From Asparagopsis taxiformis (lineage: Eukaryota; Rhodophyta; Florideophyceae; Bonnemaisoniales; Bonnemaisoniaceae): a stretch of 64,000 nucleotides of DNA. Numbering within the stretch: position 1 is the stretch's first letter; each line of letters starts with the position of its first letter. This document shows, piece by piece, positions 17,938-49,663 of the stretch. The translations under genes were made by a program, and so were the position numbers. Where the stretch lies: NCBI GenBank assembly GCA_030407315.1, contig JALQPE010002093.1, positions 1 through 64,000 of the forward strand. Reading direction: 5' to 3'. The notes under the pieces are model-generated. The model saw only the letters and a program-made list of their open reading frames with translations. It had not been told where the DNA came from and ran no database searches.

Positions 17938-18373
17938 CACTACGGTGTTGAAGAGGGGGCCTCAGACAGTACGGTGAGACAGTGATTTTTACTGTCTGAG
18001 ACAGTAAAAATCACTATGCGGCAAATGAAAATTAATGCCACACTTGGAGACAGTGATTTGCACTGTCTGGCAGACAGTACGGGACACTGTCTGCAGACAG
18101 TAAAAAACACTCTCTTACCGTACTGTCTGAGGCAGTGAATGGAGACAGTAAAAATTAATGATTTATTCAATAGTTGGATATGATGTAATTTACTGTACTG
18201 GGCAGTGTTGGCGGATAGTGTTTTGTATTGGCCAAGGCAACATGGCCGGATAGTGAAATACGCTGCCTGGGACAACAGATGGAACCAACACGGTGCACTG
18301 TCCTGGGCAGTACCTGGAGACAGTGATTTTCACTGTCCTGGGCAGCACCTGGAGACAGTGATTTTCACTGTCC
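17938..18373 (+). repeat. Left terminal inverted and subterminal repeats of the CACTA element
   Basis: This begins CACTACGGTGTTGAA and contains alternating acagtgatttttactgt-type repeats in both orientations, then about two copies of the 35-bp ctgggcag-cacctggagaca motif. It is near-identical in inverted orientation to about 49227-49663. Subterminal repeats in this superfamily are binding sites for the accessory transposition protein. Confidence 0.9.
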
Positions 18374-18600
18374 TCGTCTGTGTTCTCGGAAATGAACGCA
18401 GACGTCCACAACCTCTAGTACACCTAGTATTACTAGGCGGACGTCCATGTTCTCCAGTATTTTTGGATGTCCGCCTAGAACCGGACGTCCATGCGGTCTA
18501 GTACGTCTAGTATTACTAGGGCGACATTCATTGTTTCTAGTACCACGGATGTTCCCCTCGGGATGGACTTCCGCCATGTCTATGTCCACCTAGGACGGGC
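18374..18600 (+). repeat. ggacgtcca / ctagta repeat, possible end of another DNA transposon
   Basis: From cgtctgtgttctcggaa the sequence has several ggacgtcca motifs and ctagtattactagg palindromes. A related block in the same orientation is at 20022-20195. The shared sharp start suggests a transposon end nested inside the CACTA element, next to its subterminal region. Confidence 0.55.
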
Positions 18601-20021
18601 GCTGGTTCAGAAATTCAAAAATTTCGACCCCAGAAATTTCTGCCGCCGTCCTCGACATGGATGTCCGCATCCATCACGGCGGCCACTCTATTTTTCCTTG
18701 TCGGTCGACTCCAATTTCGTCTTTAATTTTTTCATCCTCTCGCTCACACCCCCTTCCAGTTGGTGCTCACCTCCCCCGTACTGTACCTCAAACACCCCCA
18801 TTACCACTCTAGCACGCATTTTCAACTACCTATCCCCGCTTCCACGGTGCATACCTCCATTCCATACATACTTTTCTGCTCTACCGTGCAGATTTCGTAT
18901 AACCAGTCCTCATACTACCTCAGAATAGGGAAAAACACCCCCTATCTCCTCGACCATGCTCTCCCCCATCAACTTTGAAACGTATTGTTCTTCAATACCC
19001 TATCTCCTGTACCTTCAACCCCTCTCCTTCGCCCTCTCCACAAACTTCCCCTGCAGCTTACCTTTCCAAAACCTCTCACTCCCCATCCCGTACCCGACCT
19101 GCTCTAACCCTCCCTCCCTCAGCTGCTCCATGCCCCCCACGCCATCCGCATCTTCGATACCGTATACACCACCACCACCAGCCCACGCTCCCGCTCCCCC
19201 GCCGTCTCCCCAGAAACCTCCCCGCTCTGAACCACATATCAACCCTCCACTTCGCACCCTTCCTCCCACTCCCCTCCCTCCCCAAATACAATAACCCCCT
19301 TCTTCTCCATCACATCCCCACTCACCACAGCCAGAACAGACGCCACCCCCTCCCCCTCTTTCTCCTCACTTTCCTAAAACCCCCTCCTCTCGGCGCCTTC
19401 AACCGCACCCTCCTACGGTCCCACCTAAACACCTCCTCCGCCCTCACTACCCAACACCCCGCAGCGTCTCCCCAATCCCCATAATATGCTTGTCGGCACT
19501 CCTCTCCGAATCACACTCCAATCTAAACCCGCACTCCGTACATTTCCAGCTCCCCCTGTACCATCCCAAGATTCCATCCACCCCCCCCACAGAACACATC
19601 CTCATACCACAGAAGAATTTTCTTCCTCTCATACCTCATCCTTAAAACCTCCATCAGCTCCATGTAAATTTCGATGTAAATATTTTCTCCACTATGCAAT
19701 CCCAAACATGTATGAGCGTATGCCTTTCCGCTTTGTCAACCCTGAATATTGGTACTCATGTATTCATAAAATAGGGCCACCCACATCCCTATCCCGTTCT
19801 GCAAGCTTTACAAACCACTAGATGCATACTCCACAACTATACAACAAACACTACTCGCTATTTCGGACGACGCGGTACACAAGTAGCGTAGTCTCAACCT
19901 TCCGTGACGCCTTCCCTGATGCGTACAAGTGCGAAACACGTCTAGACTACTACTACTACTACTACGATATAGTATATCAGAAGTGAGTGCGGGAATTTTC
20001 GGCACAGGAGATGGTGCGTCT
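18601..20021. other. Non-coding, pyrimidine-rich stretch
   Basis: From about 18720 to 19620 the + strand is dominated by C and T with runs of ccctcc. The long open frames there (Pro/Ser/Thr-rich) follow from the skew and have no domain I recognise. A short (cta) microsatellite is at about 19948-19966. No gene is supported. Confidence 0.6.
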
Positions 20022-20195
20022 GTGTTTTCGGAAGTGGACGCGGACGTCCAGTCTCTCTAGTACGGGTCCTAGTCGGCCCCGAGATTTACTAGAACAAATG
20101 AACGTCCGCGTCCAAAAAAAATAAACATTTTTTGGATGCGGACGTCCACTTTCTCTAGTACATATGGCGGAATACTAGGACCCGACATCCAGTAT
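20022..20195 (+). repeat. Second copy of the ggacgtcca repeat end
   Basis: It starts cgtctgtgttttcggaa like the copy at 18374, then has gcggacgtcca, ctagtac and an inverted pair gacgtccgcgtccaaa / ggatgcggacgtcca around a short A/T centre near 20123. Confidence 0.55.
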
Positions 20196-20317
20196 ACAAT
20201 ATATCAGCGAAAACCGGGAGGGAAGAAATTACAGCGGATGGTAAATTCAGGGCCCATATCGGACCGTATTTTATTCTCTCATTTAGGAAACTGCTCGTAT
20301 ACAATACGTCTCTCTAG

Positions 20318-20455
20318 AATAGGGAATACATATCTGGTCAGAATAGGAAATAAATACCCGGTTAGAATAGGAAATACGTATCCAGCCAGAATACGTAATA
20401 TGTATCCAGCCAGAATACGAAATACGTATCCAGCCAGAATACAAAATACCTGTCA
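20318..20455 (+). repeat. 24-bp tandem repeat
   Basis: About six copies of a unit resembling agaatacgaaatacgtatccagcc, increasingly uniform towards the right. No gene is visible. Confidence 0.8.
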
Positions 20456-20759
20456 GCATATCGTCGATCACCCATCTCCCTCACTATCGCGTTCTCCCTA
20501 CCATCCGAACGCCATGCACCACCATCCGCACATACTGCAAGAACCCTCACGACCTAGATTACAAAAAATACGCTCCTTCCCAATACCATCCCCGCTTTCC
20601 TCGACACCACCCCAGCCCATTAAATCATCAAGACATCAAACACGAACATGGTCAGCAAAATCTTACACCACTTGAAACGCACTCTCACTTCTATCGTATG
20701 CCCCAAAATATACACATACCAGAAACACCTCACAGCTTCATTCCCCATCTTCCTACATC

Positions 20760-21840
20760 CCTTCTTCACTCTCCTTCAGTCCTGCCGTTCCTGCTTCACC
20801 ACTCCTGCATCACATACAAAACATCAACCCCAACAGTCAGATTCAAAAGCAACGCTTACCACGACAGATATACTAGGAACTCCCTTACTTACCTCTCCGA
20901 GAGGATGAGTGAATCATCCATCCTACACAAAATACAAACCATGATCCAAAAACCTTGCAATGAATAATCAAAGTCAGCAGTCCATATCTTCGCAAAACAA
21001 GTCTTGGTGCTCAATGAAACTTACCTTCCGTCATCACCATTCCTGCATCACCTACACAATATCGGAATCAACCACAACAGTCAGACTCAAAACCAACCTT
21101 CCCTCACAGCATACTTTCAAAACTCGCACACTTACCTTCGCTCCACACAATACACACCATGACTCAATAGGCTTCTAATGAAAAATATCGCATCAACGGA
21201 AATAGTCAGACTCAAAACCAACCTTCCCTCGCTGCTTACTTTCAAAACTCGCACACTTACCTTACCTGTTCCATCCTGCACACAATAAAAACCATAAATC
21301 ACGTAATCGTGTAGCCAAGAAAAGTAGTCAACATTCCGCATCTTCGCACAACCGGTCTAGGCGCCCAATGTGACTTACCTTCCGTCATCACTATTCCTCC
21401 ATCACCTACGCAACATCGGATTCAATCGCAACAGTCAGATTGAAAACCAACGTTTCCCTCGCTACATACCCTGAGAACTCGCAAATGTACCTCTCATCCA
21501 TCCTACACACAATACAAACCATGATCCAAAAACCTTGCAATGAATAATAATCATAGTCAGCAGTCCATATCTTCGCAAAGCACATCTTGGCACTCAATGA
21601 AACTTACCTTCCGTCATCAACATTCCTGCATCATCTACACAACATCGGAATCAACCACAACAGTCAGACTCAAAACCAACCTTCCCTCACAGCATACTTT
21701 CAAAACTTCACGTACCTCTCTTCCATCCTCCGCTCAATACACACCATCAGTCAACAGGCTTCCCATGAAAAATATCGCATCAACGGAAATAGTCAGACTC
21801 AAAACCCACGCTTCCCTCAACGCATACCCTCGAGGGTAGA
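20760..21840. repeat. Degenerate tandem array with periodic splice-donor-like motifs
   Basis: The motif gtcagactcaaaaccaacc recurs with variants near 20836, 21079, 21206, 21433, 21662 and 21791, and a larger block starting atgatccaaaaaccttgcaa recurs at 20940 and 21520 (579 bp apart). On the minus strand several copies contain GGTAAGT, a perfect eukaryotic splice donor, and some contain TTGTGTAGG-like acceptors. It may be an amplified exon-intron fragment; there is no intact frame. Confidence 0.6.
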
Positions 21841-21853
21841 GGATGGAACGAAG

Positions 21854-21891
21854 GTACGTGCGCGAATCTTGATCAAGATTCGCGCACGTAC
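21854..21891. repeat. Perfect 38-bp palindrome
   Basis: gtacgtgcgcgaatcttga is followed directly by its reverse complement with no spacer. It can extrude as a cruciform or fold as RNA. Confidence 0.95.
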
Positions 21892-22487
21892 AAAGCAAAG
21901 TCGGTCAAAGAAGATCAGTCGGTGATGAGGGCGGAGTGGAGCCTGCGGCGTCGACCGGATAGCTTTCTGCGTCCGCTTAAGTCTTGCTGTGCATACTCGA
22001 AATCATCGCCGGCAGTGAGATTGAGTATGGCCCAAGCCATGGTCTCTGATTCCCCGAACAATGAGATCCGGATCGAGAACAACGAATATAAACATATAAT
22101 CATATATATGAGAATCCATTTGCTTTCCTTACATGATCCGTGGCATATCCGCTGTAAAGCACATTCAGATTCCACGAAGTTTGGAAATAAAAAGTTTATT
22201 ATTACAAATGAATTAATTGAAAATTCATGTCCCAGGGCAGTCGTTCGTCCTTCCATGCACACGTTGCCAGCACGCAATGTGATGTAACAGTTGGAAATGA
22301 TTGAACTCTCGGTTAAATTCCACCGTTGGGATGTCAGCTGGAGTGAGCACAAAACTACTACCCAAAAAACTACGAACACGTTACATTCCAAGTCTCGAAA
22401 GCACCACAAAAATAAAATTGGTCGCATCTGGACGGCACAGTCTCCCCTGTTCAGCTCGCAATCCTCCCTTTTGCGTCAAAACTCGAC

Positions 22488-23266
22488 ATGGAATGCAAGT
22501 ATGAAGGGTGCTTCTACTACTGCGTAGATGCTTATGCGCTCGCGCTGCATGAGCGAACGTGTCACTACCGTTTCAACCCCTCTCTCCAACATTTCAACAA
22601 CGCTCGTGTCCCTGCCGTCACCCATGAGCCTGCTCGAAACGGCGACCATGATTCCCCGCAACCCAGCTCCCCAGACCCAGAATCTGGTCGTGCTTCCTCC
22701 AGCGACTCACCCTGTGACGCTCCACTGCCACCAACCTCAACCCCCTCCCGCGCAGACCTCCTCGTGCAATCCCTCGCCGCCAGTCTCACAACCCTCGAGT
22801 ACAAGGCCGGGGCTGGCCGCGTGAGCGAAGTCATCACCATCCTACAAGACCCCGCATTCTCCCTAGAAAAGTTCAACAGCGCCGTTCGCACCGTAGAAGA
22901 ATGTCGCCACGTTACCGCTTCCATGGTCGAAACACATTTCCGCACCGAAGGTTACAAGAGCCACATCATTCCAGACAAAACTGGTAAGTACTCGGCACAG
23001 CTGTACCTCCGCGACCCAGTCGACATGCTCCGCAGGCAGTTAGCACTGGCTAACGACCAAAATACTCTCTTCCACCCCTCCCCACAGACCGCCCCAGACG
23101 GCACCGCAATATTTTCTCATCCCCTACACACAGAATTCGCGAAAACGCTGCACCAGGTTACTAGACAGCGCGTGCAGCTCTCGGAAGATCCACAGGTCGT
23201 ATGGGCAGAGGAAACTGATCCCACCGCTTCCTCCTTTGCCGGCCTCCTCCAAGTGTACTCCGACAA
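22488..23266 (+). pseudogene. N-terminal part of a second DDE transposase (Plavaka/CACTA-like), truncated
   Basis: The ATG at 22488 opens a frame with a C2H2-like finger (Cys at residues 3 and 8, His at about 21 and 26), a Ser/Pro-rich linker, and then a conserved-looking region with HFRTEGYKSHIIPD and, close to the end, GLLQVYSDNTT. The last resembles the first catalytic Asp strand (SDKT-type) of CACTA/Plavaka transposases. Exactly there, at 23267, the sequence turns into another CACTA terminus, and the frame continues into transposon repeat DNA until 23312. All catalytic residues beyond the first are missing. Family assignment is from motif resemblance only. Confidence 0.5.
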
Positions 23267-23650
23267 CACTACGGTGTTGAGAATGAAAACAGACAGTAAA
23301 TTTACTGTCTGAGACAGTAAAAATTACTGTCTGGCCAAGACAGTGCGCGGAGACAGTAAAATTTACTGTCTGGAAATTTCAGAATACTGCTGCAGCAGTA
23401 AACTGGCACGAAATCTGGACAGTACCAAAAACAGTAAAATTTACTGTCCAGAACAGTAAATTTTACTGTCCGGAAGTGTTGCCGCCAGACAGTATGTGCA
23501 GACAGTACATTTTACTGTCTGAGACAATACATTGTACTGTATTACTGCACTGTCTGGGGAAATCTGTAGACAGTAGTGTAGATAGCAAATTGTATTGTCT
23601 GCGGGTAGTACCGTGCATTGTTTGACAACACTGTCTGGTGGAGTGGACTT
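23267..23650 (+). repeat. Second CACTA-type terminus with subterminal repeats
   Basis: CACTACGGTGTTGAG starts at 23267 in the same orientation as the left end at 17938. It is followed by some twenty acagtaaa / tttactgt motifs in both orientations, but apart from the first 14 bases it is not closely alignable with the 17938 end. It marks either a related element inserted into the transposase above or an older end. I found no matching right terminus. Confidence 0.75.
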
Positions 23651-24168
23651 AGAGGAAATATGGAGCATAGTGTTGGTGTGAAGGTAAATATTGGAATGGT
23701 GTGTGGTATACGACTATATTAATTGTGATGGTGCTTTACAGATAGTTGGGTGCGGGGAAGCTAGATGCTGAATAGGACGTTGGAGAAAGGAAGATTGGGA
23801 GAACAGAACATATCTGGTTTGTCTCACCGTAAGGAGAGAATGTACATAGTAGCTATAATATGTTGAGTTTAGCATTTCAAATTATACCTATCTATCTTTG
23901 CATTGAAAGTGTCTAGTAGGAGACGTCAGTCTGGTAGCGAGGTGTGGTATGCACAGGACGTGGGTGGTGGCAAAGGAAAGAATACGCACCATCCACCACT
24001 AAATTATGAAAAATAACCGTTACGGAGCACTGGGAAGCATTATTATTATGTAGAGTAGACCAGGATGGATGCATCCACTGAAATGATATTTGCTACAACA
24101 CTGCTGTACTAAGCGTGACATCCTTCAAAGCAATTCTCCTTTTAGCAAACTCCAATTGCAAGGTCAAG
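23651..24168. other. Non-coding spacer upstream of the coiled-coil cargo gene
   Basis: I see no ORF or repeat of note. An A/T-rich stretch around 23850-23900 may hold promoter elements for the gene starting at 24169. Confidence 0.4.
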
Positions 24169-25695
24169 ATGAATCCCGAAACCTCCGTAAGCATCGCCGC
24201 ATTTTCCGAAATAACGCGTGAGGGCTTTTCGAACATCACTGCAGAGTTGAAAGCCCTGAGTGATAAAATGGATGCCGTCGAGAAGAGCACCATTCAATTA
24301 CGCGAGACTCTCGGAAATGTCGCCAAGACTGTCTCCATGCTAAACACCGATATGCAGGAGGTCAAGAGCATCGTCGATGGGCTTCTGAGCCAGGGACAAG
24401 GACATCCGAAGAAGATCGCCTCCGAGAAGGACAGGGAACGTCTCCGCATTGCGCAGGATGCGGAGAAATCGTTCACGTTCGAAATGGTGTGTGCTGTGCT
24501 GTGTGCTGTTGTTCCAACGTACACGAAGGCAATGGTGGATAAGAGGGATAGGCATTTCAACGGATGCCAGCTAATCAATACGCTGATGTTCGCCAGGCAG
24601 AGCAATGAGCGAAAGGATGTGTTCAATAGGACGCTTGCCGGCCGGAACCACATTGAATTGCGCTGCCAAGTTGTGACCTCTTTAATCAAGAATACGTGTC
24701 AAAACAATTCTTTCAGAGAGGGAGGAGACCGTTCCAGCTCCAATGGAACGTCGGAAGGTATCGAACGGTGGAGGGCGCGGGGGTATGTGACTACCGGGAC
24801 CATTGAGGAGACAATTCGCGGAACGGACTCTGCTCGCATGGATGGAATGCATGGGACGTCCGAGGGAAGTGATGGGGCCGCTCGAAAGCAGAAGCGAAGA
24901 AAGGTTGGAGACAATGGGCCGTTGCACAGAAAGGAGGTAGGCATCACTGTGACGAAATCGGCACTCACAGCAGTGACCGGGTTTATGAACAAGTCCAGAG
25001 ATCATGTGCGAAACCGGTTCATCCGAGATCTTGGATTCGTTCTATACAGTGGGTTTCAAGGTTCAGTCCGAATGGAGCATCATTTGCACGACGGTGGGCT
25101 GGACATTGAGTCAGTTCCAAGTCTGTACTCGGCGCAGAGGAAAATGAATGCAGCGGAGCGTGCAGCAATGGATGACAAGAATATGAAGATTCTTCGCGAC
25201 TTCATTGCAGTGCGAAAAGAAATGCTATTCAAAGTCGAGTACGAAGTTCAAATAATTGGAGAACCGGACAAGAGGTTTTTGACTAGGAGGATCAATTTAG
25301 TAGAGGTTGCACTGAACTTTGCAGTCGCCTACACGCAATGTTCTGATAAGAACATGTTCCTGCGACGTTCAGAATACTCCTTGCAATTCATCTACATACT
25401 TGCATACGGGTTCCGAACGATTTTGAAATTTCAAAGTGGAACAGAGGTGGAAGGAGCGCAAATCCGGGAAATCAATGAAGCAGTGAAACTGCTTCTTCCC
25501 GGGGAGCGGGTGAGTAGTCGGTTCATGAATGAGGAGGTTTTGACTATATCGCGTGATAGATATGAAGAACTGAACGTAGACGATGGGGGGGAATCAGTGC
25601 TGGAGGAGAGCTTCAGGTCTATGGAAGAGGACGGAGGAGATGCAGAATATGTGAAGGTATTCGTCGATGATGAAATCGAGAATGAAGGGGAGTAG
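24169..25695 (+). CDS. Coiled-coil cargo protein of unknown function
   Basis: The open frame begins further upstream at a GTG, but the first ATG, with A at -3, is 24169, giving 508 residues. Residues 10-75 are heptad-like (FSNITAELKALSDKMDAVEKS...), predicting a coiled coil. A basic stretch KQKRRK around residue 240 could be a nuclear localisation signal. The second half is helical and ends in a very acidic tail. I do not recognise a family. A homologous C-terminus is encoded at 63752-64000 on the other strand, with matching LLPGER / MLPSER, VLTI and YVKVF / YVEVF motifs, so this is a recurring transposon cargo gene. It is convergent with the next gene. Confidence 0.75.
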   Translation: MNPETSVSIAAFSEITREGFSNITAELKALSDKMDAVEKSTIQLRETLGNVAKTVSMLNTDMQEVKSIVDGLLSQGQGHPKKIASEKDRERLRIAQDAEKSFTFEMVCAVLCAVVPTYTKAMVDKRDRHFNGCQLINTLMFARQSNERKDVFNRTLAGRNHIELRCQVVTSLIKNTCQNNSFREGGDRSSSNGTSEGIERWRARGYVTTGTIEETIRGTDSARMDGMHGTSEGSDGAARKQKRRKVGDNGPLHRKEVGITVTKSALTAVTGFMNKSRDHVRNRFIRDLGFVLYSGFQGSVRMEHHLHDGGLDIESVPSLYSAQRKMNAAERAAMDDKNMKILRDFIAVRKEMLFKVEYEVQIIGEPDKRFLTRRINLVEVALNFAVAYTQCSDKNMFLRRSEYSLQFIYILAYGFRTILKFQSGTEVEGAQIREINEAVKLLLPGERVSSRFMNEEVLTISRDRYEELNVDDGGESVLEESFRSMEEDGGDAEYVKVFVDDEIENEGE

Positions 25696-25970: not shown

Positions 25971-27332
25971 TCATTTTTGCTCCGGACTGCAGGTGGCAGG
26001 TGGAGGAGAGGGTGGGTGGGTAGTGTCTGAATCCGCATTGAAGCCAAGACGAGAGATAGCCTCATAGCCAATGTCTTCAAGCTCCTGGCATATAGTAGTA
26101 CCACTGAAAATACAGCAAGGTAAGCGTAGATGTAGTGTACCAAACGTCTCTGCGGTTGATAGAGGCTGGAAAGTGCTGTAACAAGCTCGGCGCTGAATAC
26201 GTCTCCACAGTAACGAAAACGTTGCTCCATAAGTAACAGTAGCCTTATCACGTAGGTGGAAAGAGTCCACGATGCTAGACTGTGATAGTTGGCTAAGACA
26301 TAGGGGATGTAAAAATGTATTGTTGACATGGTCAAACTCGTAGGAGTCTCTGCAAAGAACTGTCATACGTTGGTCTGGGCTGGACAGGACGTAAGCAGAT
26401 GAGCCGACGAGAAATGCGGAAGAAGGAGCATCATGAGAGCAGTCAACGTCGACTAGATTTCCTAAAATTCGGACAATCGATGAGCTGCCTCCATCGCGTT
26501 CCGCCCTGCTCTTCACCAATATTTTCTGGAACCCGTGTTGCGAGGTACCTATGGAGTCACATAGTGCCTGAAAGGTGGGGAAAATGATGGAAAGATCCGA
26601 CTCATTTCCAGAGGGAAAGGTGATGTCCTCAAAGGACGGCAGGAAGAGAACATCACGATTCTCTTTCGCCTTGCATTGAATGGCAATAGTGCGGAATTGA
26701 GCAAGGGAGCAGTCAGCCTGTACTCTGATTTCTTCTTGCGATGTTTGTCGCATTCCCCTGGAGTGCTCGGATTTTGTCATCCGGAGGGAGAGGGGCTTGT
26801 CCGTGTACACACCAAGCTTCTGAAACAGAATGCTACATACAGTCAGAGCAGAGGAGGTCATGGAGCTGTTGGAATCGAATGGAGGGGGAAGAGGATGTTT
26901 GGCAGCTGACTCCAGCTTTTCCAATCTTGCCAGCATTTCTGCTATGGTCTTCTTCATTTGATCCGCAGTGCAATCTTGAAGGATGCCGCGGTGGCGGTGG
27001 CGAGTGTGGTCAATGCCGTAGTCCGGGTCTCTCTCTGCTGGGGATGCAGGTGAGTCCATACTGCGAAGCTCACCACTTCGCCACGGGAGAACCCTTCCGG
27101 AATCCTTGTCGACGAGCTCGTTACGATCTGAAATCTTGACTTGAGAAAGGGTAGAGTCGAAACCATATTCAGCTTTGTATTCGAGCAATGCATGGAGGAA
27201 TGGGTCTGTTTCGGTCTTGACCTGAGTAATTTCCTTGACGATTGCAGACCACCACACAATTTTTCGTTTCCTCCCAAACGGCCGAAGTTCCCATTGAACT
27301 TCTATAACGTCGTTTGGAGCGAGAGGAAGCAT
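25971..27332 (-). CDS. Cargo protein with possible Tudor-like N-terminal barrel
   Basis: The ATG at 27332 opens an uninterrupted 453-residue frame. The first 90 residues alternate hydrophobic and polar residues around aromatic positions (VIEVQWELRP, KIVWWSAIVKEI, LLEYKAEYGF, GRVLPWR), a pattern like Tudor or Agenet barrels that read methylated residues. This is a resemblance, not a confirmed domain. A short helical segment (MKKTIAEMLARLEKLESAAK) follows, then a globular C-terminal part with no known motif. It is divergent from the ParB-methyltransferase-SET gene; the 513-bp interval between them probably holds both promoters. Confidence 0.65.
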   Translation of the reverse strand: MLPLAPNDVIEVQWELRPFGRKRKIVWWSAIVKEITQVKTETDPFLHALLEYKAEYGFDSTLSQVKISDRNELVDKDSGRVLPWRSGELRSMDSPASPAERDPDYGIDHTRHRHRGILQDCTADQMKKTIAEMLARLEKLESAAKHPLPPPFDSNSSMTSSALTVCSILFQKLGVYTDKPLSLRMTKSEHSRGMRQTSQEEIRVQADCSLAQFRTIAIQCKAKENRDVLFLPSFEDITFPSGNESDLSIIFPTFQALCDSIGTSQHGFQKILVKSRAERDGGSSSIVRILGNLVDVDCSHDAPSSAFLVGSSAYVLSSPDQRMTVLCRDSYEFDHVNNTFLHPLCLSQLSQSSIVDSFHLRDKATVTYGATFSLLWRRIQRRACYSTFQPLSTAETFGTLHLRLPCCIFSGTTICQELEDIGYEAISRLGFNADSDTTHPPSPPPATCSPEQK

Positions 27333-31609: not shown

Positions 31610-31930
31610 CGGGGATGCTGACAGCAAAGTCATCGTTACGATGACTTTGCTGTAAGAAAACAAATCATTACAGCAGCCATGATTTCTTTACCGGGTAAAA
31701 AAATTGTGGCCGCTGTAATGAAACGTTTTCTTACAGCAAAGTCATCGTAACGATGACTTTGCTGTAAGAAAGCAAAACATTACAGCGGCCACAATTTTTT
31801 ACCCGGTAAAATTTCTTGCTGATTTTTTACCCGGTAAAAAATCTTTGGCCACTGCAAGGAAACGGTTCCTTACAGCAAAGTCATCGTAACGATGACTTTG
31901 CTGTAAGGAACCCTGGTAAACGGCTTCAGC
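31610..31930. repeat. Palindrome array 1
   Basis: Three copies of the palindrome acagcaaagtcatcg / cgatgactttgctgt (31621-31653, 31731-31767, about 31867-31909) are separated by attacag-ggcc blocks and ttaccgggtaaa / ttacccggtaaa palindromes. The array is bounded by gtttaccgg and cctggtaaac, themselves inverted. It lies just past the 3' end of the methyltransferase gene. Confidence 0.95.
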
Positions 31931-31936
31931 TGTAAG

Positions 31937-32014
31937 CAGCAGGGAGTTTCGTCCTTCTCCCTTCTTGGTAAAGGTACCTTTACCAAGATGGGAGAAGGAC
32001 GAAACTCCCTGCTG
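31937..32014. repeat. 78-bp inverted repeat adjoining array 1
   Basis: cagcagggagtttcgtcctt at the left is matched by its complement at the right around a central ggtacc, with only two mismatched positions. A diverged half-copy follows array 2 at about 32818. Confidence 0.9.
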
Positions 32015-36200: not shown

Positions 36201-36939
36201 CCGACTCGAGAATGGCCTTCAACGCGGTCACTCGGTGAGATCCATCGACATATTGCAGTCGTACTTTTGCATTGGAATCAATCACCTCGCAGACGGACAC
36301 GCGTGAAGCAATCACGGAAAATCCCTGAGTGAGAAACGTTTTCTTCAACTCATCAACGCGATGCGGCCTGACCACCCTGGACACGACTGCCGGAGGAGAA
36401 ACATCCAGGGGGGAAATGAAGACTGGAATGTTTCGGCAGCTCTCCGGACTTATGTCGTAGTCCACATCCACCGGGATGGGCACTGTGCCAGGGTAGGCCA
36501 GCCTGGTGCTGCGGAGAGGCTTGTTCGGTACGATGTCACGAGCGTTGTGATCATCGACCTTCTCCGCATCCTCTGCCAAGTCGCTGCCGGACGCGATGAT
36601 CATGTCCGGAGCAGGCGAGCTGGGCAGAGGAGCACCAGATCCCTCGACGGCTGGCGCCGCTTCGGCAGATTGAGCCGGAAGCGGAGTTGCGGGAACGCCA
36701 GCGTCGATTGTCGGGACAACCGCGGGATCGGAAGCGGAAGGGGGGGAGGGGACGGGCTTAGGTGCTGGGCTGAGCTGGGTCAGCGCTGCAGCAGCTTCGC
36801 AAACGTCCATGGGGACAGGGGGGGCCAGAGAAGGAGAAGGAGAGGGAGAAGGAGAGGGAGAAGGAGTGGGAGAATCGTTGTCACGGCGGCTGGCAGAGCG
36901 CACCTGGCGGTCGAAAGCGTTGGGGGATTGTTGAGCCAT
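33293..36939 (-). pseudogene. ParB-like / 2OG-Fe(II) dioxygenase gene, one frame change
   Basis: The start is the ATG at 36939 (gcaATGG). The first frame has a Pro/Ser-rich N-terminus, a ParB-like domain with VDGSHRVTAL (D232, H235) and a helical region to about 35520. Homology to the paralogue at 38516-41775 then continues in the -1 frame, at a GGGG run, through a Ser/acidic linker to the stop at 33293. The C-terminus, from RMKYY, is a double-stranded beta-helix dioxygenase: H-T-D (33662-33670), distal His in LYHYG (33452-33454) and Arg in PTRGH (33383-33385). Such enzymes oxidise methylated bases or proteins; DNA is a plausible substrate given the context. The frame change may be a deletion, assembly error or recoding. 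Confidence 0.82.
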
Positions 36940-38285: not shown

Positions 38286-38515
38286 ATCTGTAAGCCTTCC
38301 TCACCTCAATGTTGTAACCAAAGACGACTGCGATATTACCTTGTTCTATTCTAGTAGTGCCCACCATAGTTTCCTCCCCTTCTCATATTAAATTGAGTAT
38401 TGTATATCTCTCGACCCGTCTACATACGCAAACGTCATGTACTAGCCTAACTTTCATCGTTTACTTGAAGGCGGCCTTGATGCCTGCCATAGAATGCTAT
38501 TAAGAACTAATTTCA

Positions 38516-41500: not shown

Positions 41501-41775
41501 ACTGTCGGAAATTTCACTTTGCGAGGATCAACTTGCACTTTAGAAGAGCTGTACTGAGCAATAGTGATGCTTTTCTCTTCAGCAGAAGGAGAATTGCTCT
41601 TCTCCGCTGTAGTATTCATGATACTATTGTCTCCCATTGTAATCCCTGCAATCTCAGTTCGTTCAATCGGTTCTCTGTTCAAATGTTGTGTAGACGATGA
41701 AATCCACAATTGTGGTACCTCCGAGTGCGCTTCCCGTCTCTCAGCTTCCTCTCTTATACTGTCCGGACAAGACAT
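38516..41775 (-). pseudogene. Second ParB-like / 2OG-Fe(II) dioxygenase gene, one frame change
   Basis: The start is the ATG at 41775. The ParB-like domain has CIDGSHRIAAL (D138, H141), followed by the conserved helical region (DVASVSIADNVCAVIEFL) and a long Glu/Ala-rich linker. The first frame stops at 39391, overlapping by four bases an ATG at 39394 that opens a 292-codon frame. Homology to the paralogue already runs in that -1 frame upstream of this ATG (EAPLFTDEQEN... SRMKYY), so the shift is near 39500 in an AAGAAG stretch and the two frames were one protein. The dioxygenase has H174-T-D176, distal H246 (VYHGG) and R265 (PIRSH), numbered from 39394. Termination-reinitiation at ATGA is an alternative way to make the second half. 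Confidence 0.82.
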
Positions 41776-42454: not shown

Positions 42455-42995
42455 TTGCTGTAATGAAACGTTTTCTTACAGCAAAGTCATCGTTACGATG
42501 ACTTTGCTGTAAGAAAAGAAAACATTACAGCAGCCATGATTTCTTTACCGGGTAAAAAAATTGTGGCCGCTGTAATGAAACGTTTTCTTACAGCAAAGTC
42601 ATCGTTACGATGACTTTGCTGTAAGAAAAGAAAACATTACAGTAGCCATGATTTCTTTACCGGGTAAAAAATTGTGGCCGCTGTAATGAAACGTTTTCTT
42701 ACAGCAAAGTCATCGTAACGATGACTTTGCTGTAAGAAAGCAAATCATTACAGCGGCCACAATTTTTTTACCCGGTAAAATTTCTTGCTGATTTTTTACC
42801 CGGTAAAAAATTCTTCGGCCACTGCAAGGAAACGGTTCCTTACAGCAAAGTCATCGTTACGATGACTTTGCTGTAAGAAAGCAAATCATTACAGCTGCCA
42901 CGATTTTTTTACCCGGTAAAACATTCTTGGCCACTGTAATGGAAACGTTTTCTTACAGCAAAGTCATCGTAACGATGACTTTGCTGTAAGCATAC
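42455..42995. repeat. Palindrome array 5 (largest)
   Basis: Five copies of the palindrome (near 42476, 42592, 42705, 42839 and 42957) at 113-134 bp spacing, separated by the gccatgatttctttaccggg and ggccacaatttttttaccc blocks. It sits between the second ParB-dioxygenase gene and the 3' end of the transposase gene. Confidence 0.95.
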
Positions 42996-43110
42996 CTCCC
43001 TCCATCCTCTCAGATCCTCTCCCCACTACTTTGCACCAATCCACCACCGCCCTAGAGTGTACAATTCATATGTGATGCATCTGGTTATTCATTTTATTCT
43101 TCCCTAAAAA

Positions 43111-46100
43111 TCATGCAGCCCTCGGTGGAAATCCGTCTCGCCTACATAGTGCATATATCTCTCCACCCTCCAGCAGTCCGGGTCCGTGCCTTACCTCCCT
43201 CATGTTCTCATCATATTCGCATACACTCCCATTGCAATAGTGCATACCAAACACCTCAGTGACTCCCTCACTCATCTCCACAATTACTGTTCGTCGCCTC
43301 TCTTCGACCTTGAACACTCCTTCATCAGTTTTTTGCAAACCCAGGCAAACTCCATAAGCTGTACCTTGCTCATCTCTCGCACTCTCGTTCCTCAGGATAA
43401 AGAACGCTAGAACAATAAAAAACCGCGGTTCATAATTAATTCTTCCCCGCATTATCTCTGATGTGAGACGAGACGCCGGGTACAGAATCGCTTGTGAAGT
43501 TGCACCATCCTCACATTTCATCTGTTCAGGGCAAACAGCATGGATGATAGCTCCTGATTCTAGAGAGCCAGACCTCTGCACTGTTTTCCTTCCCCACTCT
43601 GTCGTAGTGCTTCTAGAAACTCTTCTCACCCATTCGGCATACTTTCCACACCCGCTTGTTCCGCTTCCGTACCTTTCGGTAAAGAACCGTTTGAAAACAC
43701 CTACAGCACCCTCTGCCATATCACATTTTCCATTCATGTACTCCTTGACCTCGTCAATAGATATACCTCCATGCCCTCTCCACGTCACAATTTCACCATC
43801 CGCCGACAATATCTTTCCTCGACGCTGGGAGAGAAGCTGGAGAACCGGTTCCTGGAAGCAGTTTTTCACTACCTCGTCTTCCACATCTATTTCTCTCCCT
43901 AGCTCCTGTGAAAGAACGTTGACCATTTGAGAGCATTCGGACGAGGACCAATGTTGTGGCTCCATGCCGATTTCGCGCAAAACAATGGCCACTCTCGTCT
44001 GCCAGTCATCCGCAAGAACTAATTCCAGCGCTGAAAGCTGTTCGCTTTGGTGATTGGACATTCTCACACCTTTCTTCAGCGGCTGATGCATCCGTTCGAA
44101 TATAAGCTCCTGCACGTGCTTCACAGAGCCGTAGGCAGGAAGCGTATGAACACAAAACTCGACAAGACGATGAACATTAGGCTTGTCCAAATGTGCTCCT
44201 GCTCCCTTCACTTTCCGACAATACTCATTCAACGTCTCCACGTAGTCTACAGTTCTTCCCAGAATGTATTCATTCCTGCCACCTTCTCCGTCAGCCGTCT
44301 CTACTTCATGGGGACCGTCTTTCCACCATACGGGCATGAAACTAATACACGAAACCAGCTTCTGAAACATCACTACTAGTTTGACGGCCCCATCAAATTT
44401 TTCACGATGACCTTCCCCTTTCCCATCCATCATTCGAGCTGCGTTTTCGAATGCCATAGGTGCTATCAGAAGCACACTGAATATGTCACTCATGTTCATG
44501 GAAAGCAGATTGTTGGTTCCAAATAAACGGTTCTGCCTTCCCATCCTGAACTTCTTCAGAGCGCCCAGAATTTGCAATTCAGCTACCTCTCGAATTCGTG
44601 GGCTGGCAGCTGAAATACAAGCGTTCAGTACATCTTGTGCCAGTCCAGACAATAGATGGTCAGGTGCTATCACTGCGGAACGGTACGGGTCAAAAATTGC
44701 TGGGACAACTGAAACTCCGTTTTCCGTCTTCGGTACTTCTTCCTGCACTGCTTCCAAGGAAGTGCTCAGGACATGAAATGGTAAATCTTCCCCTTCTTCT
44801 GCAGCCAGTCCGAGAGTGCGAAGCTGGGTTTCTGTGGCATCCTTACGTGTCGATGCATTCCGATACTTGCTCCTGGCATGCGTCGATGTTTGCCCGTTCA
44901 CTACCGAAGTGTATGCATTCTTCGTGCCACCAGTACTGCTCAGGTCATATTTGCGGAAACTGCAGATGTGGCACGGAGAGTTTGATGTGTGTCCAAGAAC
45001 ATCCAGGGTATGTGAAACTGCAGGATAGTCTCCAATGCTCCCCACTGGGTCTAGAAATACCACAATATCTTCTCCCTCTGCATTTTTCGTTGGGAAACCC
45101 TCTGTGCTTCCTCGCACTATATCTTGAACGATATATCGCAATACACAATTTGTGGACACTCCCGGAGGTGGCAAACCAATCACTCGAACCGCTTGGTAGC
45201 TTCCCCTTTTCCGAGGCGGTAGATTGAGAGGTAACATATAGCATCCACCAAAACTTCCCTTCCTGCTTGTGAATGGTTCAAAGTCATCCGTGTAAAGGAG
45301 AAATCGGTAAACAAAGTAGTTTCGACCATCCTCCAGCTTTCCCCAACATGGTGCATCTTCTCGCGGAGACGCTGGGTGCCATTGCGACCTGTGGTCTCCG
45401 AAACCATCCGAGAACACCCCTGAAACACGAATTTCTTCATAGTTGGGGCTTCCTAGTCTATCGGGCGGGTTTCTGGCTTCAGCAAAGCTCGCGCCCGGTG
45501 AAAAGCAAAGTAACATGGTGGATGCTTCTCCGACCTGCTCTTTCAAATACCTGTTCACCAATACGACGTGTGGAACAATATCACCCTCTTCCATTCCAAT
45601 TGGTAATAGAACGGTTATCACGTCCCCAGCTCGTGTTCCTTTTCCCTTGGCTCCTGCTCCGATTACACATTGCGATATCGCTCGCAGAGCATGCTGCCTC
45701 TCCCATTCCAATAGATGTGACATTCGCGGCTGCAGATATTTTTCGACATGCACATCATGCTCACCGTCGTGTCGAGCCTCATAGGTAACTATGGTCCTAG
45801 CATGAAGTTCCCACAACGACGTAACCGCCACTCTTCTCCTCTTCGGTTTCCCACCATCTCTGTCATTCTTCCTGAACCCTTTTGCTCTTTCGATGACGGC
45901 AACCTGACGAGCTCCTGGATGACATCGGATTCGAATTGCTGTTCCATCAGGTACATAAATGTGCTTCAAACCCTTTTTCCCATCGCTGTCAATGGGAACA
46001 ACTGCTGTGCGAACGAATGGGTCGCTCAAAACACCCCTCCTGCACTTTGCAATGAACGAATCTTCAATGCTGCACTCTGCGGTTGATTTTTCTCCTTCCG

Positions 46101-46914
46101 AGCTTCGATTGTTCGCATCACTGCGGAATGCTTCAAAGATTGGTCGAGTCTGGACATCTTTCAGAGCCCATGTGCTTGGGAGTACAATACGAACTTTCGC
46201 CATTCCTCCACAATTGTCTCTGTCATCTGTTGTTCCACGGGTTCCTACTGCACCTCGATGCTGTGCAGCTCTTGCTCCGCTCTTTCGAAGGTCTATCGGA
46301 AACTCGATGTCACAGCTCTTTGCATAGCAGTGTTTCCTCAAGAATGGTAGTATCTTCTGTCGCATCACAGAGTCCGACGGGACGTGCTCACTTGGATCTC
46401 TGCGGAAATTCATTCCGAACAGGGTACCTTCATAGTGGGCTCTTGTCATTCTTTGAGTTCCACTCAGCTGAAGAGCCCCATACATCGCAGGCCATTGTAG
46501 TAATGCCTTGAAATCACCACATGCTTCATCCCCAGCATTTCGGTCTATCGGGCCTCCAGTTGAAATGGAATCAGAACCTCGTCCGGTTGCTTCTTCCGAT
46601 TCCATTAGCGTGCTCGATGCTACGTAGATGTCACTTCCAGCTTCATCGTTGTTGCTGTACACATCAATACAACCTTCTATTGTGTCACCCATAGGGATTG
46701 GGGACTCCAATAGGTCATCTGTGGTACACTCACGTCGTAGCTCATTACCTCTCGGGATTTCTTTGTTCATGCAGGCTGCATCACTGCTGCGGATTTCTCC
46801 CTGCAGTTTCCCAGGAAGCTGTTTACTGGGACTGGCCACATTGAGTGAATCGAATCTCGCCTTTGTCCTACGACTTGTGGTTTTCTTTCGAATAGGAGTC
46901 CGTCTCGGAGCCAT
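43111..46914 (-). CDS. CACTA/EnSpm-like DDE transposase
   Basis: The ATG at 46914 (aagATGG) opens a 1267-residue frame with no interruption. The basic N-terminus could be a nuclear signal. The catalytic region reads YTDDFEPFTSRKGSFGG followed by LPLNLPP (first Asp, D543 or D544), the arrangement of EnSpm/tnp2-like transposases. It continues with SIGDYPAVSHTL and GHTSNSPCHIC (second Asp D629 with a C-x2-C insertion) and FERMHQPLKKGV (Glu E940 followed by His). The large helical insert between second Asp and Glu is also usual. It would cut and rejoin element ends; the nearby CACTA terminal repeats are its natural substrate. It is transcribed leftward from near the right end. Closest subfamily (EnSpm, Plavaka, KDZ) is undecided. 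Confidence 0.85.
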   Translation of the reverse strand: MAPRRTPIRKKTTSRRTKARFDSLNVASPSKQLPGKLQGEIRSSDAACMNKEIPRGNELRRECTTDDLLESPIPMGDTIEGCIDVYSNNDEAGSDIYVASSTLMESEEATGRGSDSISTGGPIDRNAGDEACGDFKALLQWPAMYGALQLSGTQRMTRAHYEGTLFGMNFRRDPSEHVPSDSVMRQKILPFLRKHCYAKSCDIEFPIDLRKSGARAAQHRGAVGTRGTTDDRDNCGGMAKVRIVLPSTWALKDVQTRPIFEAFRSDANNRSSEGEKSTAECSIEDSFIAKCRRGVLSDPFVRTAVVPIDSDGKKGLKHIYVPDGTAIRIRCHPGARQVAVIERAKGFRKNDRDGGKPKRRRVAVTSLWELHARTIVTYEARHDGEHDVHVEKYLQPRMSHLLEWERQHALRAISQCVIGAGAKGKGTRAGDVITVLLPIGMEEGDIVPHVVLVNRYLKEQVGEASTMLLCFSPGASFAEARNPPDRLGSPNYEEIRVSGVFSDGFGDHRSQWHPASPREDAPCWGKLEDGRNYFVYRFLLYTDDFEPFTSRKGSFGGCYMLPLNLPPRKRGSYQAVRVIGLPPPGVSTNCVLRYIVQDIVRGSTEGFPTKNAEGEDIVVFLDPVGSIGDYPAVSHTLDVLGHTSNSPCHICSFRKYDLSSTGGTKNAYTSVVNGQTSTHARSKYRNASTRKDATETQLRTLGLAAEEGEDLPFHVLSTSLEAVQEEVPKTENGVSVVPAIFDPYRSAVIAPDHLLSGLAQDVLNACISAASPRIREVAELQILGALKKFRMGRQNRLFGTNNLLSMNMSDIFSVLLIAPMAFENAARMMDGKGEGHREKFDGAVKLVVMFQKLVSCISFMPVWWKDGPHEVETADGEGGRNEYILGRTVDYVETLNEYCRKVKGAGAHLDKPNVHRLVEFCVHTLPAYGSVKHVQELIFERMHQPLKKGVRMSNHQSEQLSALELVLADDWQTRVAIVLREIGMEPQHWSSSECSQMVNVLSQELGREIDVEDEVVKNCFQEPVLQLLSQRRGKILSADGEIVTWRGHGGISIDEVKEYMNGKCDMAEGAVGVFKRFFTERYGSGTSGCGKYAEWVRRVSRSTTTEWGRKTVQRSGSLESGAIIHAVCPEQMKCEDGATSQAILYPASRLTSEIMRGRINYEPRFFIVLAFFILRNESARDEQGTAYGVCLGLQKTDEGVFKVEERRRTVIVEMSEGVTEVFGMHYCNGSVCEYDENMREVRHGPGLLEGGEIYALCRRDGFPPRAA

Positions 46915-47873
46915 CTTGATGTTTTTGTTCTTTTCTTCTTCGCTCAGTTTTGTTGCATAGAATACAACTCTAAACTTCTATGACATGACTACTATCTCAA
47001 TACAGTACTACTACTTTTAACCGTTACGAAACCTTTCCAGGCTTTCATTCGATCCAATGAACTGGTTCACCACAATGCTTTGCCCTATGCTCATTGCTTT
47101 ATGCACATTGATTGCTATTTCATCCGGACTCAACATCGTTTTGCTATCTTGTATCGCATCCCCTAACCACAAACCCAGCCAAGATGTATCCATTTCCGGA
47201 AAACGGCCGTTTATTTCGCAGTGATGCTCTAGGCACTAATACTGAATCTGATTTTCTCATACACGTACTTCCTACTCGTATACTCTACCATTTTCGGCCC
47301 TATTTACAAGTTGAAAGCACAATCTCTCGTTGAATCGTACTCGGTGTGATATCTTAAATTAGCATAAATTTATATATTGCAATGCAGATTCACTGCTCGC
47401 TTGCAACATGAAAATTATAAAATTTCTCCCACACTGCTGTTTCCTAGCCGCCCACATCCACGTGGCCCGCTTTGACTGCCTGCCAAGTGTGCTCAGAGCA
47501 TGCAATGACGTCATCGATATATACCGTCCAAATCATCACTGGAAGCGCGGACTCCTCGTCCAGGAAAGTGCGCCATTTTTCCTACTCCTCGCCTCCCCCT
47601 TTCCAGTAGGCCCGATATGCTAGTGTTTTTCCTATATTTCTGTAGTGATGACGTCATTATAGACTAGAGAAGGCGGTAGAAGATACAATAATTTTGCGCC
47701 TGTTCTGCCAGGTCATGTGCTTCAAAGCGTAATTCGCACCCTAGGTATCGTTTTTCTGGGCCTCCCATCGCACCGCTCCGTTTCAAATTCATCCCTCTAT
47801 TGTTAGAGTACACGTCATTTCCGCCCGCAGAGTGCTACTTAAACAACAGATTCTGGAGATCCCTGTTTCCATC
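46915..47873. other. Non-coding region upstream of the transposase gene
   Basis: Probably the transposase promoter and leader. Two tgacgtca-like motifs occur near 47508 and 47648. No supported gene; the small ORFs lack features. Confidence 0.4.
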
Positions 47874-48014
47874 TTCATATCCGTCGGAAGCAAAGCAACA
47901 ACCCTGGCCGTGGAAGCCGTATAGATCATCTAAACTGCTTCCAAAGCGTAAGTTTTAGATCATCAATACGGCTCCCAAGGCCAAAGTTGTTGCTTTGTCT
48001 CCGACGGATATGAA
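47874..48014. repeat. 141-bp imperfect hairpin
   Basis: ttcatatccgtcggaagcaa at the left pairs with its complement at the right through about 60 positions with roughly eight mismatches and a loop of about 18 bases. The imperfect long stem is similar in shape to a small-RNA precursor or a foldback transposon remnant. The rest, to 48700, is A/T-rich with no gene that I see. Confidence 0.8.
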
Positions 48015-48715
48015 CCATGATGGTACGTTTCCACAACTCACGCCACTAACCCAGTTTTCTATTCGTTTTCTCTTTCTCAGGTTTCCAGTCGGTGAGTGTT
48101 CCAATTCTACTTTCATTTATCTTTCTCTCTTACCACTTCTCCACTAATTTTCTTTTCTGCCTGTGAGTACATATCTCAATTTGGGATGCAATGGTATTTG
48201 TTAAGGTACGTTAGTCTCCTAATCACCATCAATTTCCCTCTCCAATTCAACGTCACTAACTTGTTTCCTTTCTCTACATCATTTTTTCTTCTTCTCTTCA
48301 TTTCCTAGCTTATTCATGCAGCTCAATCAGTTGATAGATTTCTAGACTTTTCTAGTAGTTTTAGTTTTACTCGTCGGAATAGTGTTAGTTGTAGTAGCAT
48401 TTTTAACATAGGGATTGTTTATTCTCAATGTAGCCTGCGCAAATAAACAAATCCAGAGTGAAGCTTCCCATATCGCACCCTCTTAGATTGCTACCTATCC
48501 TACCGCGTATACCTCTCGCTAGCTCATAGTCACTACGAAATAAAAATTCCTAGCCGTACTATTCTGTCCATTCCCATATGAATACCGTCCATGCCCCATC
48601 CTCATAGCGCTAGAACTGCCTTCCTCTACCCCAGAAAGATGCCCACGACAGCGTGACGCTCCATCTCATCCACCACTCCCAGACACCGAATTTTACTATA
48701 TCAGGACACTACTTT

Positions 48716-49300
48716 TACTGTCTCCAGGTGCTGCCCAGGGCAGCACGAAATACTGTCTCCAGGTGCTGCCCAGGGCAGCACGAAATACTGTCTCCAGGTG
48801 CTGCCCAGGGCAGCACGAAATACTGTCTCCAGGTGCTGCCCAGGGCAGCACGAAATACTGTCTACAGGTGCTGCCCAGGGCAGCACAAAGTACTGTCTAC
48901 AGGTGCTGCCCAGGGCAGCACGAAATACTGTCTACAGGTGCTGCCCAGGGCAGCACAAAGTACTGTCTACAGGTGCTGCCCAGGGCAGCACAAAGTACTG
49001 TCTACAGGTGCTGCCCAGGGCAGCACAAAGTACTGTCTACAGGTACTGCCCAGGGCAGCACAAAGTACTGTCTACAGGTACTGCCCAGGACAGTGAAAAT
49101 CACTGTCTCCAGGTACTGCCCAGGACAGTGAAAATCACTGTCTCCAGGTACTGCCCAGGACAGTGAAAATCACTGTCTCCAGGTACTGCCCAGGACAGTG
49201 AAAATCACTGTCTCCAGGTACTGCCCAGGACAGTGAAAATCACTGTCTCCAGGTACTGCCCAGGACAGTGAAAATCACTGTCTCCAGGTACTGCCCAGGA
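48716..49300 (+). repeat. 35-bp tandem array in the right subterminal region
   Basis: About 17 copies of a 35-bp unit of the form ctgcccagggcagcac plus actgtctccaggt. Variants are grouped: cgaaatactgtctcc first, then caaagtactgtctac, then agtgaaaatcactgtctcc. Each unit contains the inverted pair ctgccc / gggcag. The left end of the element has only about two copies, so the array expanded on this side. Open frames here are artefacts of the 35-bp period. Confidence 0.95.
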
Positions 49301-49663
49301 CAGTGCACCGTGTTGGTTCCATCTATTGTCCCAGGCAGCGTATTTCACTATCCGGCCATGTTGCCTTGGCCAATACAAAACACTATCCGCCAACACTGCC
49401 CAGTACAGTAAATTACATCATATCCAACTATTGAATAAATCATTAATTTTTACTGTCTCCATTCACTGCCTCAGACAGTACTGTGAGACAGTGTTTTTTA
49501 CTGTCTGCAGACAGTGTTCCGTACTGTCTGCCAGACAGTGCAAATCACTGTCTCCAAGTGTGGCATTAATTTTCATTTGCCGCATAGTGATTTTTACTGT
49601 CTCAGACAGTAAAAATCACTGTCTCGCAGTACTGTCTGAGGCCCCCTTTTCAACACCGTAGTG
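49227..49663 (-). repeat. Right terminal inverted and subterminal repeats of the CACTA element
   Basis: This is the inverted near-identical copy of 17938-18373, ending in ACACCGTAGTG at 49663. Differences are few (for example caatagatgg for caacagatgg). Confidence 0.9.

Follow-up and report, generated by a model that had tools for sequence, protein, structure and literature searches.

How the epigenetic enzymes carried by transposons find their own element is an open question, and it is raised by a locus of the red alga Asparagopsis taxiformis. We analyzed a stretch of 64,000 nucleotides (positions 1 to 64,000 of contig JALQPE010002093.1, assembly GCA_030407315.1; hereafter the window), in which a CACTA-like DNA transposon holds both a candidate address, namely arrays of a 39-bp palindrome, and a candidate reader of that address, a ParB/sulfiredoxin-like domain at the start of three predicted DNA- or chromatin-modifying proteins. 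Our reading is that the modifiers would be addressed to the element's own palindromes; the anatomy can be read from the DNA, whereas the targeting is inferred from it, and we regard the reading as a whole as evenly poised between right and wrong. The features on which it depends are as follows.

23267-49663, + strand: whole element, CACTA-like, 26,397 bp, CACTACGGTGTTG ... CAACACCGTAGTG; delimited by a left-type end, a right-type end and copies of the end tags in the genome
27846-31313, + strand: methyltransferase-SET protein, 1155 aa; ParB/sulfiredoxin-like domain, predicted beta-class adenine-type DNA methyltransferase (DPPF at 658, FSGT at 840), SET domain
31626-32780, no strand: palindrome cluster A, 6 copies of CTTACAGCAAAGTCATCGTWACGATGACTTTGCTGTAAG
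33293-36939, - strand: ParB-dioxygenase 1; split in the window into a ParB-like frame (35065-36939) and an overlapping dioxygenase-like frame (33293-35605); single-frame relative P0019
37181-38257, no strand: palindrome cluster B, 6 copies of CTTACAGCAAAGTCATCGTWACGATGACTTTGCTGTAAG
38516-41775, - strand: ParB-dioxygenase 2; two frames in the window, a single open frame of 1087 aa in many copies
42483-42982, no strand: palindrome cluster C, 5 copies of CTTACAGCAAAGTCATCGTWACGATGACTTTGCTGTAAG

Modifier proteins and their shared N-terminal domain

A preliminary description of the window, made from its letters alone, had named a DNA methyltransferase-SET protein, and Pfam recognized both parts of it, an N6/N4 DNA methylase (N6_N4_Mtase, 2.4e-16) and a SET domain (PF00856, 4.4e-6; 27.5 bits against a cut-off of 22.4). 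The relative P0002 has an identical domain order and matches the protein at 38% in the best local match and at 33% overall. A profile of the two sequences, compared with the PDB, found DpnA (4.1e-7), CcrM (1.4e-4) and MboIIA, and weakly KMT2A (0.027), the PDB relatives of the SET part being weak; CcrM-type and other adenine methylases of NCBIfam matched the protein below their cut-offs. DPPF precedes FSGT, as in the order DPPY/F before FxGxG that we take to be characteristic of beta-class methyltransferases, and the methyltransferase part is predicted to be of the beta-class adenine type.

The two ParB-dioxygenase genes of the preliminary description were likewise found, as two pairs of ParB-like and dioxygenase-like open reading frames (ORFs). 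Both parts stand in one protein in P0019, a relative of 1174 aa. For ParB-dioxygenase 2, an unbroken frame spans 1087 aa in 69 of the 119 scored genome copies and 1074-1095 aa in another 11. Because many other copies are unbroken, the frame break is attributed to the window copy or its sequence; two separate genes, or a splice, were ruled out by the same single open frame. H663-T-D665, H735 and R758 are invariant in all three sequences compared (both dioxygenase-like proteins and P0019), and this HxD...H...R pattern is presumably the signature of 2-oxoglutarate (2OG)-Fe(II) dioxygenases. Judged by these motifs alone, the dioxygenase-like parts very probably are 2OG-Fe(II) dioxygenases.

The preliminary description missed the ParB-like domain on the methyltransferase-SET protein. 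A DGxHR motif is invariant in five of five sequences (the methyltransferase-SET protein, both dioxygenase-like proteins, P0002 and P0019), and is of the G-x-H-R type that we take to be the pocket motif of the ParB/sulfiredoxin superfamily. When the N-terminus of the methyltransferase-SET protein was compared with phages by tblastn, 27 records were found up to an E-value of 10, the best being a gene of a Leptospira phage that is annotated as ParB-like (4e-5) and the next listed standing at 0.04; among the ten rows listed, five bear a ParB or ParB-like annotation. The same N-terminus was matched by the PHROG family of ParB-like partition proteins (0.003), and a profile comparison joined it to the N-termini of the dioxygenase-like proteins (E 7.4e-5, probability 62%). 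A structure model of the ParB-dioxygenase 2 domain was searched with Foldseek, and its first 24 matches were sulfiredoxin (or complexes of it), ParB and KorB, the last with its name incomplete in two rows (best E 8.7e-3). Taken together, these comparisons show that the methyltransferase-SET protein and both dioxygenase-like proteins each begin with a predicted ParB/sulfiredoxin-like domain, of a type found mostly in bacteria and phages.

Palindrome arrays as a candidate address

The palindrome arrays were also overlooked by the preliminary description. The 39-bp palindrome CTTACAGCAAAGTCATCGTWACGATGACTTTGCTGTAAG occurs in 17 copies, in three intergenic clusters, with symmetry arms of 18-38 nt (one mismatch allowed), and a second palindrome, TTTACCSGGTAAA, has 15 copies that are confined within the window to the same clusters. 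The 23-nt core of the first is exact in 16 of the 17 copies; elsewhere in the window it does not occur at up to four mismatches, nor does it in five shuffles. In the genome searched for copies (141.5 Mb) we counted 8,711 exact occurrences of the core against none of its reversed control. A 23-mer tag of the element's left end has 623 exact copies and a 26-mer tag of its right end 886 (reversed controls 0). This gives about 14 cores per left-end tag when all cores of the genome, inside or outside elements, are counted.

The persistence of the palindromes was assessed in two derivatives with no intact element genes, C192 (14.5 kb) and C59 (8.35 kb, measured to an internal right end). Fourteen sites of the 39-mer are kept in C192, with 25 of 532 positions changed, and nine in C59, with 10 of 342 changed. 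Aligned pairwise with the element, the two derivatives diverge by 4.2% and 5.9% at palindrome positions and by 16.7% and 18.2% at the remaining positions within 600 nt. This comparison shows that the palindromes outlast the genes in C192 and C59, and in our reading their persistence would reflect selection as cis sites. Such shortened copies are frequent: the spacing between left and right ends is 14-16 kb in 11 of the 18 pairs tested (C10, C19, C21, C64, C101, C104, C117, C192, C212, C215 and C228), and this 14-16 kb unit, also found at loci L069-L071, is a common derivative. C192 retains fragments of ParB-dioxygenase 1 and has a second right end in its interior.

A mechanism may be proposed from these elements. 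The ParB-like domains, or the region behind them, would recognize the palindromes or load at them, as bacterial ParB does at parS. The palindrome-bound domains would then bring the DNA-adenine methyltransferase, the histone methyltransferase and the oxygenases onto the copies of the element, gene-less derivatives included. One step further, the resulting chromatin state might keep these copies expressible or transposable against host silencing, and escape from host silencing is a plausible outcome. The strictest form, a self-addressing chromatin system in which a ParB-type clamp loads the enzymes at parS-like palindromes and marks every copy in cis at about 8,700 sites of the host genome, lending the element an epigenetic identity of its own, is one that we put forward only tentatively. 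In the early-diverging fungus Rhizopus microsporus, N6-methyladenine (6mA) is described as going with trimethylated lysine 4 of histone H3 (H3K4me3) in open chromatin, and a TET-type dioxygenase as able to oxidize 6mA, in the parts of the review used here (PMC13297926). Because that review pairs 6mA with H3K4me3 and with 6mA oxidation, an element combining a writer with a histone partner and an oxygenase would make coherent sense, provided that its host belongs to the 6mA/H3K4me3 kind. In the host genome an exon-by-exon search, itself weak, gave no match to the C5-methyltransferase family PF00145 (10 of 14 controls, all prokaryotes, were found) and none to PF00172 or PF05063, for which the controls were silent as well.

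The strongest alternative retains the same transposon and enzymes and denies that the palindromes are an address. Their role would instead lie in transposition, in replication or at the 3' ends of RNAs, or they would be binding sites for the element's coiled-coil, 453-aa or transposase protein, and the modifiers would have a broad action comparable to that of TET/JBP enzymes from fungal transposons. We consider this possible, if doubtful. It is favored by the example of TET/JBP-carrying DNA transposons and of oxidized 5-methylcytosine, which is described on retrotransposons as well (Kojima, 2025, PMC12730594, as far as drawn on here), and by the position of the clusters, each of which lies 3' of one gene or more. 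It fits less well with the distance of the clusters from the nearest element end, at least 6.7 kb, unlike the subterminal sites of CACTA elements, with the ParB-like domain on all three modifier proteins, and with the palindromes that persist in the two derivatives lacking the genes.

A number of results count against modifiers addressed to the palindromes. The place of the palindromes at gene 3' sides would also suit signals for 3' ends, replication or structure, their similarity could be maintained by gene conversion driven by hairpins, and the more distant aligned positions of the derivatives (mostly ends and gene remains) differ by only 7.7% and 7.6%. As to the reader, no sequence model matches the ParB-like domain of ParB-dioxygenase 1, and a profile of all five ParB-like domains found no ParB in the PDB. 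The corresponding piece of ParB-dioxygenase 2 matched SNRNP27 (0.0011) ahead of GmrSD_N (0.056), both below cut-off, the GmrS part of the latter being termed ParB-like in PMC5512222, as far as that source was drawn on. The model of its domain had a mean predicted local distance difference test score (pLDDT) of 43.6 and no Foldseek match at E of 0.001 or less. As to the enzymes, Pfam gave no match to TET/JBP or another 2OG dioxygenase family for the dioxygenase ORFs or P0019, comparison of the dioxygenase part with the PDB by sequence gave a chance-level match only, and its structure model, at a pLDDT of 30, is too poor to speak for or against the double-stranded beta-helix fold.

The element, its copies and its ends

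The remaining genes of the element are listed here.

43111-46914, - strand: transposase, 1267 aa; candidate DDE triad D564, D650, E961 and C669-x2-C672 (numbering from 46977)
24169-25695, + strand: coiled-coil ORF, 508 aa; matches only below Pfam cut-offs
25971-27332, - strand: 453-aa ORF; no Pfam match

The coiled-coil protein of the preliminary description is present as the 508-aa ORF, and an accessory DNA-binding role for it would be a guess. Its possible methyl-reader exists as the 453-aa ORF, intact in other copies, though without a Pfam match that would speak for such a function.

Only the best candidates were scored among genome copies, so that the counts are lower bounds for intact copies and uninformative on the broken share. 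The methyltransferase-SET protein is 100% identical over its full length and stop-free in 39 of 39 scored copies, and the transposase is intact in 36 of 36. The dioxygenase part of ParB-dioxygenase 2 is stop-free in 119 of 119, at 98-100%, and the 453-aa ORF is identical and open in 93 of 93. Copies were searched for with these four genes, and with neither the coiled-coil gene nor ParB-dioxygenase 1. Further copies that join both ends, the check that the preliminary description had proposed, were found in five contigs, with three or four of the searched genes between the ends. The most complete is C632 (34561-61071), with a right end at 34561, transposase, dioxygenase 2, methyltransferase-SET, the 453-aa ORF and a left end at 61071, in the order of the window. 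Among the matches listed, C168 (2748-28895) and C1708 (24891-51330) have dioxygenase 2, methyltransferase-SET and the 453-aa ORF between both ends, and C74 (32666-57929) and C44 (50859-78046) have the transposase, dioxygenase 2 and the 453-aa ORF.

Spacing between the genes is mostly constant. The transposase lies 4106-4596 bp from dioxygenase 2 in 19 of the 20 contigs listed for both, the window aside, the distance being 4596 in 12 contigs, 4484 in four and 4595 in the window; the first two values differ by 112 bp, roughly the length of one palindrome-repeat unit. A dioxygenase stands at the expected distance and strand from the methyltransferase in 16 of 39 methyltransferase copies, among the matches listed. 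Two results speak against a fixed unit. In C1830 the transposase and the dioxygenases are far apart, among the matches listed; and of the other 23 methyltransferase copies 11 run off the contig, leaving 12 that lie inside a contig, or on one of unknown extent, with no dioxygenase listed. In C1608 a 99.8% match to 39.3-44.3 kb of the window lies about 7.8 kb further out than it does there, and part of the copies lacking a dioxygenase may have an unlisted, lower-scoring one or one shifted by an insertion.

The many intact copies of each searched gene would also be expected if the enzymes were a domesticated or host-serving cassette that the transposon multiplied incidentally. We hold this to be improbable, given that the checked copies lie between transposon ends together with the transposase, at spacings that are mostly constant. 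Its sequence marks the 26.4-kb element as a DNA transposon of the CACTA/EnSpm type that has spread recently to a high copy number and is probably autonomous.

In the transposase, D564, D650, C669, C672 and E961 are invariant in 16 of 16 aligned sequences, namely the window protein and 15 relatives (16 relatives were found, of which the near-identical P0003 was left out). D564, D650 and E961 would form the catalytic triad. H774, H936 and H964 are invariant as well, at a spacing that differs from the H(3-4)H motif. Pfam matches to transposase families are near chance level: Plavaka matched three of the 16 members (best E 0.059) and Transposase_21 one (0.0077), the window protein matching neither, and the unrelated T4SS_CagC model matched one member at 3e-4. 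The candidate triad and the CACTA (CA...TG) termini on both ends of the element support the earlier view of a CACTA-like DNA transposon with a DDE-type transposase. The same features argue against an integrated virus, to which the ParB-like and methylase matches to phage families might point, ParB-methylase proteins being typical of phages and conjugative elements. We rejected this very improbable identity, as no capsid, packaging or polymerase family was recognized by Pfam among the nine ORFs scanned; searches of viral contigs with the transposase, the methyltransferase and the palindrome led nowhere.

The ends of the element and the features beside it are given next.

23267-23654, + strand: left terminus, with subterminal ACAGTAAA/TTTACTGT motifs
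48716-49663, - strand: right terminus, with 35-bp tandem subterminal repeats at 48716-49303
17938-18374, + strand: stray truncated right-type end outside the element, bordering a Gypsy-like gag-pol region (13505-17939)
20141-23266, + strand: left part of the target repeat, outside the element; present elsewhere without the element

The preliminary description had placed the left boundary at 17938, on the strength of near-identical inverted ends of 430 bp. Self-comparison of the window confirms the inverted repeat (17938-18381 and 49220-49663; 444 nt, 97% complementary). It does not consist of terminal inverted repeats, since both arms are right-type ends, the right end reading inward CACTACGGTGTTGAAAAGGGGGCCTC and the arm at 17938 being of the same type (CACTACGGTGTTGAAGAGGGGGCCTC). 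The left-type end, CACTACGGTGTTGAGAATGAAAA, is found at 23267 (CACTACGGTGTTGAGAATG). Both true ends have CACTACGGTGTTG in common, at 23267 and inverted at 49663, together with the subterminal motifs, of which 10 lie within the first 500 bp and six within the last 1000 bp of the element, with none between; the CACTACGG termini and subterminal repeats described earlier are thus borne out by the window sequence. The arm at 17938 was compared across eight loci, L001 being the window itself. L002 (contig C1966) agrees with the window at 99.7% over 3.4 kb, with identical inner and outer flanks; it is the same insertion and probably an allele. At the other six loci (L003-L008) the arm runs into homologues of 47.3-49.2 kb of the window, the interior of the right end, whereas the window copy ends at 18374. 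Because all six continue in this way, the arm is a truncated right end and not the left end of the element.

The distance between the left-type end and the methyltransferase match agrees with the corrected boundary. It is 4485-4490 bp in 11 of 12 methyltransferase copies, among the left-end matches listed up to C373 (C3, C116, C123, C132, C159, C168, C202, C253, C278, C289 and C337), and in the twelfth, C353, the expected place of the left end falls off the contig. The length is accordingly 26.4 kb, and not the roughly 30 kb first estimated. A single CACTA element of 31.7 kb at 17938-49663 with 430-bp terminal inverted repeats, for which its arms at 97% would speak, is hardly credible and was dismissed: its left arm is a truncated right end, the left-type end stands at 23267, with the same methyltransferase distance in 11 of 11 listed copies where it is visible, and the DNA to the left of 23267 is a repeat that occurs elsewhere element-free.

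In L031 and L046 that repeat continues past 23266 uninterrupted by the element. An open frame of L046 (193-2499) has the insertion point close to its start, and its residues 42-234 match the Plavaka transposase family (PF18759, 1.5e-16). We call the target a Plavaka-type repeat because the L046 frame has this match, while ORF 22416-23312 of the window, which ends at the junction, is in a different frame and matches no family. The right flank, 49661-52455, is uninterrupted and element-free in L048; this flank repeat (to 52455) carries GCAGTA-type motifs and is possibly the end of another CACTA-like family.

A 2-bp target duplication was found in eight of the 18 end pairs (shuffle mean 1.72, P 1.3e-4), a length that was not set beforehand. 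The pairs C59 and C174 were excluded from this test, as their right end carries the flank of an internal end, a constant flank that they share with the inner right ends of C212 and C228; for the latter two the outer right end was taken. In C4, C64 and C116 the left end coincides with the contig start and has no flank, and these ends were left out. The 2-bp match holds in seven of 11 derivatives of 14-16 kb. It holds in only one of seven pairs of at least 24 kb, and the flanks of the window copy, whose mismatch the preliminary description had named as a point against itself, remain unequal when the corrected ends are used (AA / GT); both facts count against the transposon as delimited here. For the long, near-identical copies we infer that flanks may have been exchanged by assembly or recombination. 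Contigs C4, C64, C116, C323, C337 and C2821 start or stop within three bases of an element terminus, which fits assembly trouble at this repeat.

The superfamily was assessed by termini, a target duplication of 2-5 bp, a DDE triad with C(2)C between the second D and E, and H(3-4)H, the features of CACTA/EnSpm (CMCT). The element fits the description of this superfamily in the sections of Kojima (2025, PMC12730594) drawn on, except for H(3-4)H and with the duplication partly supported. Unlike CMCT members, it has a transposase that is itself unrecognized by Pfam, and its 26 kb include modifiers and palindrome arrays. Membership in KDZ (Zisupton type), with its 8-bp target duplication, was rejected, as none of the 18 end pairs matches at 3, 4 or 5 bp. 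To the right of the element, a phosphofructokinase match at 54713-57623 is seemingly split by a match to the central region of acetyl-CoA carboxylase within a long frame.

Known systems and significance

Transposons with TET/JBP or with SET genes are already in print, as far as the sections of PMC12730594 drawn on here go. In fungi, DNA transposons carrying TET/JBP include KDZ, EnSpm, Plavaka and others (Kojima, 2025). They resemble the present element as DNA transposons with a dioxygenase-type gene proposed to counter silencing; the A. taxiformis element differs in having two such genes, not recognized as TET/JBP and joined to a ParB-like domain, and in the added adenine-type methyltransferase-SET gene. 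The comparison with TET/JBP made in the preliminary description holds as an analogy and goes no further, since the dioxygenase ORFs match no TET/JBP Pfam model. The HarbingerS and MuDR elements of Phytophthora, cited in the same source, are alike in carrying a SET histone methyltransferase gene, but belong to other superfamilies, and a DNA methyltransferase is unmentioned in the passages on them that we drew on.

Outside eukaryotes, PMC5512222 (as far as drawn on) describes a bacterial protein with nicking activity in which ParB is fused to an adenine methylase, as well as polyvalent proteins of phages that contain ParB-like domains. These share with the present system a ParB-like domain fused to an adenine methylase; unlike them, it resides in a eukaryotic transposon, adds SET and has the ParB-like domain on the dioxygenase-like proteins too. 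ParABS partition systems are likewise comparable by a ParB-like domain and repeated palindromes on one element. They differ in that no ParA was recognized here by Pfam among the ORFs scanned and in the length of the palindrome, which is 39 bp here and about 16 bp in ParABS. In the open-licence literature of PubMed Central we found no report of a transposon with a DNA-adenine methyltransferase, SET and a dioxygenase, nor of ParB-like domains or comparable palindrome arrays in a transposon.

The predicted fusion of a DNA-adenine methyltransferase to SET joins two kinds of mark, and the more than 100 intact copies of one gene provide natural replicates within a genome. Self-targeting is directly testable here, because the palindrome, with its 8,711 cores, coexists with a ParB/sulfiredoxin-like domain on all three enzymes. 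This way for a transposon to direct epigenetic enzymes to its own copies would be categorically new, should the palindromes prove to be the address.

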